In this document: positions 48 to 5,456 of the stretch, one piece after another | Layout: every line of letters starts with the position of its first letter | Numbering within the stretch: the stretch's first letter is position 1 | Assembly (NCBI GenBank): GCA_003557545.1 | Contig: PWOD01000193.1 | Span: forward strand, 1-7,598 | Direction of reading: 5' to 3' | Origin: a bacterium | GTDB lineage: Bacteria > T1Sed10-126 | Length of the DNA: 7,598 nucleotides | Position numbers and translations under genes: made by a program | Notes under the pieces: model-generated | What the model saw: the letters and a program-made list of their open reading frames with translations, nothing else | Database searches by the model: none | Told to the model about the DNA's origin: nothing

Positions 48-485
48 TTAGGTCCCTACCATTCCAGCTGTGGATGACTCCTCAACCAGCAGCACCCTAA
101 GGGCTTTCCTCGGCTGATTTACTCGCATAACCAGAAAGGCTCCCCGGGACGAATCGGCCTCACAATTCTGACTGTAATAAGCGTATCCAATATTGATCCG
201 GGCTGAAGCAAGCCGGTCGGCAATGGCTGAAATATCCGGTAGACGACGATCAAACTCAACTGTTAAGACCCGATTATCGACCACAACCATTCCCTGTTGT
301 TCAAGCAGTTCAGAGGCCATTTCAGGTTGATCAACAACAAATCTATTAACCACGTGGTCATCAGAGTCAACCGCTGTAAAACCGAGTATATTTACTCCTG
401 ATCGATGAAATGTCTGACAGATCCGGGCCAGCTCCGAGGGACAATTTTTAACGTAAACTGACAGCTGTTTGCGTATTTTAATCAC
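48..485 (-). CDS. Tandem ACT-domain protein (small-molecule sensor)
   Basis: A 145-residue protein built of two consecutive ACT-like beta-alpha-beta-beta-alpha-beta units, about residues 5-70 and 73-135, with no catalytic or DNA-binding domain. ACT domains typically bind amino acids or related ligands at dimer interfaces; free-standing tandem-ACT proteins of this size are widespread but mostly uncharacterised, so a regulatory or sensing role is an inference and the ligand is unknown. The first unit begins QLSVYVKNCPSELARI: the loop that is usually N-x-P-G-x-L reads N-C-P-S-E-L (residues 14-19), with Ser in place of the common Gly. The start is GTG at 483-485, supported by AGGAGG (complement of 494-499) with an 8-nt spacer. 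It is transcribed away from the histone gene across a 415-bp gap. No convincing terminator is visible in the 47 bases after its stop. Family call is sound, function open. Confidence 0.8.
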   Translation of the reverse strand: MIKIRKQLSVYVKNCPSELARICQTFHRSGVNILGFTAVDSDDHVVNRFVVDQPEMASELLEQQGMVVVDNRVLTVEFDRRLPDISAIADRLASARINIGYAYYSQNCEADSSRGAFLVMRVNQPRKALRVLLVEESSTAGMVGT

Positions 486-883: not shown

Positions 884-891
884 AAAGGAGG
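884..891 (+). promoter_or_regulatory. Strong ribosome binding site that fixes the histone start
   Basis: AAAGGAGG lies 9 nt before ATG at 901-903. An in-frame TTG at 892 abuts this motif with no spacer and so cannot be the start used. The near-perfect Shine-Dalgarno suggests efficient translation. Confidence 0.9.
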
Positions 892-900
892 TTGTTAAAA

Positions 901-1074
901 ATGGCTGATTTAGTTTACAAAAGCCGTGTGAAAGATGTAATTAAGGAAAAAGGATTGCTGTGTGACAGCGATCTTCCCGCAGCTGCCGGTGACAAGCTGG
1001 CTGAACTGCTGGACGAAGCTGCAAAGCGGGCACAGTCTAACGGTCGCAAAACCGTAAGACCTGCTGACCTGTAA
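901..1074 (+). CDS. Bacterial single histone-fold protein
   Basis: A 57-residue protein with a histone fold. Helix 1 is about residues 4-17 (VYKSRVKDVIKEKG, containing R9, which corresponds to the helix-1 Arg that enters the DNA minor groove in archaeal histones). Helix 2 is about residues 24-47. Loop 2 is GRKTVRPADL (48-57), with R49-K50-T51 and D56 matching the conserved RKT...D loop and Arg-Asp clamp. The order and spacing resemble archaeal HMf histones and the short Bdellovibrio histone Bd0055. By analogy it should dimerise and bind DNA in the nucleoid; that is inferred. Oddities: the chain ends one residue after the clamp Asp, so helix 3 is nearly absent, and net charge is only about +1 (11 Lys/Arg, 10 Asp/Glu). 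Cys21 is the sole cysteine. The ATG at 901 is chosen for its RBS. Stops occur in tandem (TAA-AAA-TAA), followed by a strong terminator, so it is probably transcribed alone. Confidence 0.88.
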   Translation: MADLVYKSRVKDVIKEKGLLCDSDLPAAAGDKLAELLDEAAKRAQSNGRKTVRPADL

Positions 1075-1095: not shown

Positions 1096-1131
1096 CCCCT
1101 GGAGAATTAATCTCTCCAGGGGTTTTTTTTT
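1096..1131 (+). terminator. Rho-independent terminator of the histone gene
   Basis: CCCCTGGAGA (1096-1105) and TCTCCAGGGG (1113-1122) form a perfect 10-bp GC-rich stem with a 7-nt loop, followed immediately by nine T (1123-1131). It begins 21 bp after the stop codon. It also lies past the end of the convergent nadC gene, but on that strand no U-tract follows the stem, so it should work mainly for the histone transcript. Confidence 0.95.
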
Positions 1132-1148: not shown

Positions 1149-2012
1149 TTAGAGATTTAAAAAATTAAAACTAATATCAAGGCTCTCAAAAGAATGGGTC
1201 AAACTGCCCAGTGAAATACGATCCACTCCCGGAATCAAATAGTTCTTAAAATTAATCGGATTAATCCCACCAGATATTTCGACCTCCACCCTGCCGGACA
1301 GCTGAGGAACTATCTCCCGTAACCTGTCGGGGCTAAAATTATCCAGCATCAGAACATCGATTTCAGTAAGGTCGAGCCCCACAAGTTCCTCTCTGTCATG
1401 AATTTCAACCACTACCTCCCCGGGGAAATCGATCCGCTGCAGCGCCTGTTTGACGCCACCCGCTAATTTTTTATGGTTATCTTTAATCATAACTCCAGAG
1501 TCAAGACTAAATCTGTGGTTATAGCCACCGCCACAGGCTACGGCATACTTCTGAAGTAATCTCCAGTGTGGAACAGTTTTCCGCGTATCGTAAATTTTTA
1601 TTCCATGCACCGAGGCCATGAGAACAAAACGTCGGGTCAAGCTGGCCACTCCTGAAAGCTGCTGCAGATAGTTAAGAGCAACCCTCTCAGCCGCCAGAAG
1701 CTGAGTTACAGGACCTCTCACAACCGCCAGCCTGCTCTGCTGTTCAACAACAGATGATTCCTCTTGATACCACTCGATTTCAACCGGCGGTAAGCCCTTA
1801 AATCGGCGGGAAATAAGAGTATAAAGCCGGTTAACAACAGGTATACCGGCAAGCACACCAGATTGTCGGGCGACAAACTCTCCTTCAACCAGTTTATTTT
1901 CAAGAATAATCTGCTCAGTAGTAATATCCCCTTCACCCAGATCTTCGTCCAACGATCGACTAAGATGCTCAACTAAATATTCTTTTGTAAAAAAATCATC
2001 CGAACTCAGCAT
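1149..2012 (-). CDS. nadC: Nicotinate-nucleotide pyrophosphorylase (carboxylating); quinolinate phosphoribosyltransferase
   Basis: Cytoplasmic enzyme of de novo NAD synthesis, converting quinolinate and PRPP to nicotinate mononucleotide, pyrophosphate and CO2. At 287 residues it has normal family length. Visible hallmarks in order: N-terminal open-faced sandwich with EDLGEGDITT (23-32); ERVALNYLQQLSGVAS (109-124); the substrate-binding DTRKT (142-146); CGGGYNHR (160-167); IKDNH (176-180); VEIHD (202-206); MLDN (222-225); EISGGI (245-250); and the C-terminal GVDRISLGSLTHS (262-274). After DTRKT it reads VPHWR where many homologues have TPGLR or TPGWR. Start ATG at 2010-2012 is preceded by AAGGAG (complement of 2023-2028) with a 10-nt spacer. 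It follows uvrB by 28 bp and is probably cotranscribed with it; nadA and nadB are not in the window. Confidence 0.96.
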   Translation of the reverse strand: MLSSDDFFTKEYLVEHLSRSLDEDLGEGDITTEQIILENKLVEGEFVARQSGVLAGIPVVNRLYTLISRRFKGLPPVEIEWYQEESSVVEQQSRLAVVRGPVTQLLAAERVALNYLQQLSGVASLTRRFVLMASVHGIKIYDTRKTVPHWRLLQKYAVACGGGYNHRFSLDSGVMIKDNHKKLAGGVKQALQRIDFPGEVVVEIHDREELVGLDLTEIDVLMLDNFSPDRLREIVPQLSGRVEVEISGGINPINFKNYLIPGVDRISLGSLTHSFESLDISFNFLNL

Positions 2013-4229: not shown

Positions 4230-5456
4230 ATGGATAACAGTTTAAGAGAATTTTCCACCGCACAAAAAATAGTTCTGGAGAATATTAAACCAGTTCCCGA
4301 CGAGACGATCAACCTGGAGGAGTCGGTGGAAAGAATAACCGCAGAATCAATTTGCTGTCAACACCCGGTTCCAGCCTTCAACAACTCTAAAATGGACGGA
4401 TTTGCAGTACGACTTGAGGATGCAGTAAAAGGACAAAAAAAGTTTCTAAAAATCAGCGGCGAATCAGCAGCCGGCCCGGGCCTACCCCCTGAATTACCTG
4501 CCGGAACCGCACTGCGGATTATGACCGGTGCAGCGGTTCCCGATGTGGCGGACTGTGTTATTAAAATTGAAAATTGTGAGGTTGATAATGATCGGGTAAA
4601 ATTTTCTCAGCAAGAGATTCACTCGGGTCTTAATATTCGACGGATGGGGAGTGACATGGAGGCGGGCGAGGTCGCGGTAGCAGCCGGCCATAGAGGTTCA
4701 CCAGCCTCTCTTGGCGCCATTATGTTAACCGGGCAGAGCCAACTTAAAGTCCATCAACAACCCCGGGTTTTGCTAATTTCAACCGGTGATGAATTGGTCA
4801 GAAAAGCTGGGAAAAAACTAAAACCAGGGGAAATTTATGATGTCAGCTCCCACAGCTTACCAGCCTTTGTCGAGGCTGCCGGGGGGCGGGTTGTCGACCA
4901 ACTTCAGCTGCCGGACGACCCTCGTAAAAGTCTGAAAAGGTTGAAAAGGCTGCAAGTTGACTGGGATATTGCTGTTTCCACCGGTGGCGTTTCAATGGGC
5001 GAATACGATTACACACTGGAGATTTTCGAACAGCTTGGTGGACAGCTAGAATTTCATGGTGTCAGACAAAAACCCGGTAAACCTCTGGCTTTTGGAAAGC
5101 TGAATGAGAAAGCGGTATTGATGTTACCGGGTAATGTAGTTAGCAGCCTCGTGAACAGTCTGCTCTACCTGGGGCCGGCGATTAAAAAAGCGGCTGGTTC
5201 AAGAGAATTCAGACCGGAATTCATTCAACTGAACTGTCAGGAAGAGTTTCCCAAAACCGGTCAAAGATTAACTTTTTTTCGGGGAAAAACTGTTGTGGAA
5301 GAGGGAATTATTTCGGTGAAGCCAAGCAGTAACCAGCAGGGCAGTCATATTTTAAGTTCACTAACTACCGCCGATTGTTTAGTTAAAGTTGACGCTGGCA
5401 AACAGCTCAAGCGGGGGGATAGGGCTGAAGTTATGTTTTTTAATCATCAGCTCTAA
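4230..5456 (+). CDS. moeA: MoeA-family molybdopterin molybdenumtransferase
   Basis: Inserts molybdate into adenylylated molybdopterin, the last common step of molybdenum cofactor synthesis, in the cytoplasm. At 408 residues it has the normal family length and domain order: NNSKMDGFAV (51-60, with D56), RIMTGAAVP (96-104), GSDMEAGE (140-147), the MoCF-binding core with ISTGDEL (183-189), YDVSSHSLPAF (203-213), STGGVSMGEYD (250-260), KPGKPLAFGK (281-290) and LPGNVVSS (299-306), then a C-terminal MoeA domain IV (about 325-405). These cover the acidic and lysine residues important in E. coli MoeA. One departure: the usual LPGNPVS reads LPGNVVS. No other molybdenum cofactor gene or molybdoenzyme is in the window, so whether it serves molybdenum or tungsten cannot be told. 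It is transcribed divergently from uvrB and meets the next gene tail to tail with 7 bp between stops and no visible terminator. Confidence 0.94.
   Translation: MDNSLREFSTAQKIVLENIKPVPDETINLEESVERITAESICCQHPVPAFNNSKMDGFAVRLEDAVKGQKKFLKISGESAAGPGLPPELPAGTALRIMTGAAVPDVADCVIKIENCEVDNDRVKFSQQEIHSGLNIRRMGSDMEAGEVAVAAGHRGSPASLGAIMLTGQSQLKVHQQPRVLLISTGDELVRKAGKKLKPGEIYDVSSHSLPAFVEAAGGRVVDQLQLPDDPRKSLKRLKRLQVDWDIAVSTGGVSMGEYDYTLEIFEQLGGQLEFHGVRQKPGKPLAFGKLNEKAVLMLPGNVVSSLVNSLLYLGPAIKKAAGSREFRPEFIQLNCQEEFPKTGQRLTFFRGKTVVEEGIISVKPSSNQQGSHILSSLTTADCLVKVDAGKQLKRGDRAEVMFFNHQL

Follow-up and report, generated by a model that had tools for sequence, protein, structure and literature searches.

The gene at positions 901 to 1074 (plus strand) of the window, the whole stretch of 7,598 nucleotides that was analyzed, encodes a bacterial protein with a genuine, stand-alone histone fold. 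Its product of 57 amino acids, MADLVYKSRVKDVIKEKGLLCDSDLPAAAGDKLAELLDEAAKRAQSNGRKTVRPADL, is probably an alpha3-truncated histone of the face-to-face (FtF) type, which would form tetramers that wrap short DNA and would share with HU a general role in the nucleoid. Bacterial FtF histones are an already described family (2023 to 2025), of which this protein is a further example, and the candidate phylum T1Sed10-126 joins the bacteria that carry them. Most bacteria lack histones, as the first-pass annotation had stated; alpha3 histones occur in about 1.15% of bacterial proteomes (PMC11390915). The source genome can very likely be assigned to the uncultured GTDB phylum T1Sed10-126 ("Ca. Busufiota"), from which two genomes of 2.15 to 2.2 Mb have been reported, originating from hypersaline soda lake sediment (PMC11382960). 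The histone gene is located on contig 117 of a 2.15-Mb assembly that is 92% complete; a second histone was looked for in the same genome, and none was found.

Gene, signals, and conservation

The relevant features of the window are the following; L009 is the corresponding locus of a genome of the same family (G001), referred to here as the sister genome.

48..485, minus strand: gene for a protein with a pair of ACT domains; divergent left neighbor, conserved in L009
772..777, plus strand: exact TTGACA hexamer, claimed as a -35 element; without a matching -10 and probably uninformative
886..891, plus strand: Shine-Dalgarno sequence AGGAGG, 9 nt 5' of the ATG; retained in L009 (AAAGGAGG)
901..1074, plus strand, including the stop codon: 57-amino-acid alpha3-truncated histone (probably of the face-to-face type), as indicated by homology, structure model, residues R43/N47/R49/D56, and the 88%-identical sister copy
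1096..1131, plus strand: intrinsic terminator directly 3' of the histone gene; stem-loop at 1096 to 1122 with a 10-bp stem, followed by nine T
1149..2012, minus strand: nadC, quinolinate phosphoribosyltransferase; convergent right neighbor of the histone gene

The histone gene thus stands alone between the ACT-domain protein gene and nadC, with uvrB next after nadC. The first-pass annotation had credited it with a strong ribosome binding site, a perfect -35 element, and a dedicated terminator. The ribosome binding site and the terminator hold; at the position equivalent to the latter, the sister locus has its own, different stem-loop and T tract. As to the -35 element, the hexamer is indeed exact, but it has no -10, the promoter scan returned no promoter-like site on the plus strand near 772 to 777 (two sites in the whole region, both elsewhere, with 2.4 expected from shuffled sequences), and TTGACA is missing upstream of the histone gene in the sister locus. 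For these three reasons, the claimed promoter carries no weight.

The first-pass annotation had named lack of expression and of conservation in close relatives as observations that would count against it. In the sister genome, the histone is 88% identical and the gene order is the same, which rules out a decaying or very recent acquisition. A chance open reading frame is likewise discarded by this syntenic copy, by the phmmer match to a solved histone (see below), and by the dN/dS of the two copies, which is ~0.08 to 0.26, depending on the method. Between the two genomes, the dN is 0.07 for the histone, 0.18 for uvrB, and 0.45 to 0.51 for the ACT protein, nadC, and the membrane protein, and the HU counterparts are only 52% and 45% identical. 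The histone is therefore the slowest changing of the proteins compared, and none of the neighboring genes compared is as conserved as its own. Judged from these sequence comparisons, it is a maintained gene under purifying selection. Its synonymous divergence (0.93 according to NG86) is also lower, most other genes being saturated; this could be a sign of expression, and codon usage gives no support for it.

Two further differences between the loci were noted. (i) The sister locus contains two extra reverse-strand open reading frames between the histone gene and nadC (L009, 5181 to 6040), of which there are none in the window. (ii) In the window, moeA (4230 to 5456) is located between uvrB and the gene for a small membrane protein, and nothing lies between these two in L009 (9361 to 9397); this is a gene gain or loss between the two genomes.

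The nearest sequences by identity were a Peregrinibacteria copy (57%), copies from Diapherotrites archaea (52 to 53%), and copies on haloarchaeal plasmids (49 to 53%). In the phylogenetic tree, the two T1Sed10-126 histones pair robustly (100/100) on a long branch, and this pair has DPANN archaea and Peribacteria as weakly supported neighbors (80/75), the 58 alignment columns being too few to resolve the placement. A phage origin was rejected, as there was no match among 50,697 phage records, and so was a plasmid origin, since the plasmids among the matches listed were haloarchaeal, each with less than 60% identity.

Histone fold and face-to-face residues

The assignment to the histone fold is based on homology and on a structure model. 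The best solved relative retrieved by phmmer is HLp of Leptospira perolatii (PDB 9qt0; E value, 1.2e-8). In the HMM search that the first-pass annotation had proposed, the Pfam and NCBIfam histone models matched the protein only below their cutoffs. The proposed structure prediction returned a histone fold: the AlphaFold2 monomer (mean pLDDT, 83.9) has helices at residues 7 to 16 and 25 to 46 and a short turn at residues 54 to 56, corresponding to a truncated alpha3. Foldseek identified HLp as the top match of this model (TM, 0.91; rmsd, 0.7 Å), and superposition on the HLp crystal structure gave 0.7 to 1.0 Å over 54 to 57 residues at 42 to 44% identity.

Alpha3-truncated histones are characterized by an alpha3 of 3 to 4 residues and by a helix 2 shorter than that of nucleosomal histones (PMC11390915). 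Both features are found in the model, in which the last helical stretch covers residues 54 to 56, the chain ends at residue 57, and helix 2 is shortened to residues 25 to 46. In addition, the VIA alignment to HLp runs end to end and is almost gapless, whereas HMfA and HMfB span ~60 residues per 55 model residues. Two other histone classes were discarded: (i) the archaeal/eukaryotic nucleosomal histones, which have an alpha3 of three turns and a four-helix-bundle interface, since the chain stops after one turn; and (ii) the pseudodimeric DUF1931 histones, which consist of two fused folds (the Pfam model has 138 positions), since the protein comprises 57 amino acids and one fold. The match to PF09123 spans only positions 27 to 53 and is below its cutoff.

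The loop-2 RKTV...D signature and the helix-1 arginine reported in the first-pass annotation are present as R49, K50, T51, V52, and D56 and as R9, respectively. Residues R49, S52, N53, R55, and D62 of HLp align with R43, S46, N47, R49, and D56, and the HLp DNA contacts K15, K17, K21, and T57 align with R9, K11, K15, and T51. The residues with roles in the FtF tetramer, in the RD clamp, and in DNA contact have been described previously (PMC12701072, PMC11390915). The tetramer residues (R48, N52, and R54 in the family profile; R49, N53, and R55 in HLp) are thus present as R43, N47, and R49, and the RxTxxxxD motif is present as R49, T51, and D56, with R49-D56 as the clamp pair. R43, T51, and D56 never vary among 45 relatives, and the conservation of N47 is at least 90%; these counts are partly biased by the use of NGRKTVRP as one of the search seeds. 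Because the HLp tetramer contacts recur as R43, S46, N47, and R49 and the RD clamp as R49-D56, we assign the protein to the FtF subgroup.

An alternative is a bacterial dimer histone like HBb, which would bend DNA as a dimer and would not wrap it. Loop 2 of the protein is RKTV as in HBb, HLp having RTTV, and the model resembles HBb almost as closely as HLp: the VIA Z values of the monomer are 8.3 for HLp (56 to 57 residues), 7.9 for HBb, 7.5 for HTkC, and ~6 for nucleosomal archaeal histones, the gaps of less than 1 among the first three being near ties, so that Z alone does not sort the subgroup. Nevertheless, bacterial dimer histones are marked by the absence of R48 and N52 (PMC11390915), and R43 and N47, found here and in nearly all relatives, are replaced by E and D in HBb. 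We thus consider a dimer histone improbable and retain the FtF assignment.

We infer the oligomeric state, DNA wrapping, and abundance of the protein. By homology to HLp, two chains would dimerize head to tail via helix 2, and two dimers would form a closed tetramer joined at both faces by R43, S46, N47, and R49. DNA would then wrap around the tetramer (about 60 bp in HLp), held by K7, R9, K11, and K15 of helix 1 and by K50/T51 of loop 2, and the histone would, beside HU, have a general function in the nucleoid.

Charge and comparison with known histones

The protein is close to neutral (net charge, +1; pI, 7.9), as is the sister copy (net charge, 0; pI, 6.1), whereas the HLp and HBb cores have a pI of ~9.5 and the haloarchaeal copies are strongly acidic (pI, 4.1 to 4.5). 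It also has no basic N-terminal tail; most bacterial FtF histones have a tail, mostly a basic one (PMC11390915). Because of its charge and the missing tail, its affinity for DNA may be weaker. On sequence grounds, the near-neutral charge is a possible adaptation to salt.

The comparison with characterized histones can be summarized as follows. (i) HLp, the FtF histone of L. perolatii (PDB 9qt0 to 9qt2; PMC12701072), shares the fold, the truncated alpha3, the R/S/N/R residues, the RD clamp, the basic helix-1 DNA contacts, and the single gene copy; it differs in its N-terminal tail, in RTTV instead of RKTV, and in its pI. (ii) HTkC (PDB 9f2c) and the haloarchaeal FtF histones are tailless and have the same C-terminal signature. 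The latter, which are plasmid borne in Halobacteria, differ in their acidity and are two residues shorter around loop 1. (iii) HBb/Bd0055, the dimer histone of Bdellovibrio (PDB 8cmp and 8fvx; PMC10627809, PMC11317129), shares the fold, the truncated alpha3, and the RKTV...D loop but is a DNA-binding dimer without the FtF tetramer residues.

The HLp loop-1 contacts T27 and G29 correspond to C21 and S23. C21 (961 to 963) is a single loop-1 cysteine that the two T1Sed10-126 genomes have in common (LLCDSDLP). On two of the haloarchaeal plasmids (L102, 844 to 1365; L103, 844 to 1365), the gene for the exonuclease VII large subunit directly follows the FtF histone gene.

Coexistence with HU and cellular role

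The search for HU/IHF genes suggested in the first-pass annotation retrieved two HU-family genes in the histone-bearing genome and three in the sister genome. Among genomes with related histones, mostly metagenome assemblies in which binning errors are possible, HU was present in 23 of 24 bacterial and in 1 of 10 archaeal genomes. The lone archaeal match (L011, Diapherotrites) is located at bases 40 to 303 of contig 35 and may itself be a binning error. Since HU genes co-occur with the histone in the same genome and in 23 of the 24 bacterial genomes, the histone in this genome supplements HU and does not replace it. In Leptospira, HU has been reported to be absent (PMC12701072); the bacterial count suggests that Leptospira is not typical in this respect and that a bacterium with a histone usually has HU as well.

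The histone had also been proposed to be well expressed and a major chromatin component. Conservation and purifying selection agree with a gene that is not decaying, but its codon adaptation index (0.68) falls in the range of values seen both for ribosomal genes and for other genes, so that high expression cannot be read from its codon usage. With uninformative codon usage, a void promoter, and HU so widespread, the proposal of a major chromatin component is not supported. A more far-reaching idea, that an FtF histone without a tail and almost without charge, adapted to the cell of a hypersaline soda lake, forms chromatin with HU throughout the phylum, appears doubtful to us; if true, a wrapping histone and HU would share one bacterial chromosome.

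Conversely, the histone might be a minor DNA-binding or regulatory protein that has no part in nucleoid architecture, with HU packaging the DNA. The two HU-family genes of this genome, the presence of HU in nearly all bacterial genomes with a related histone, the lack of codon bias, and the near-neutral charge would fit such a role. We nonetheless regard it as improbable, given that the histone is far more conserved than HU (88% versus 45 to 52% identity), which speaks less for a dispensable regulator than for a general nucleic acid binder.
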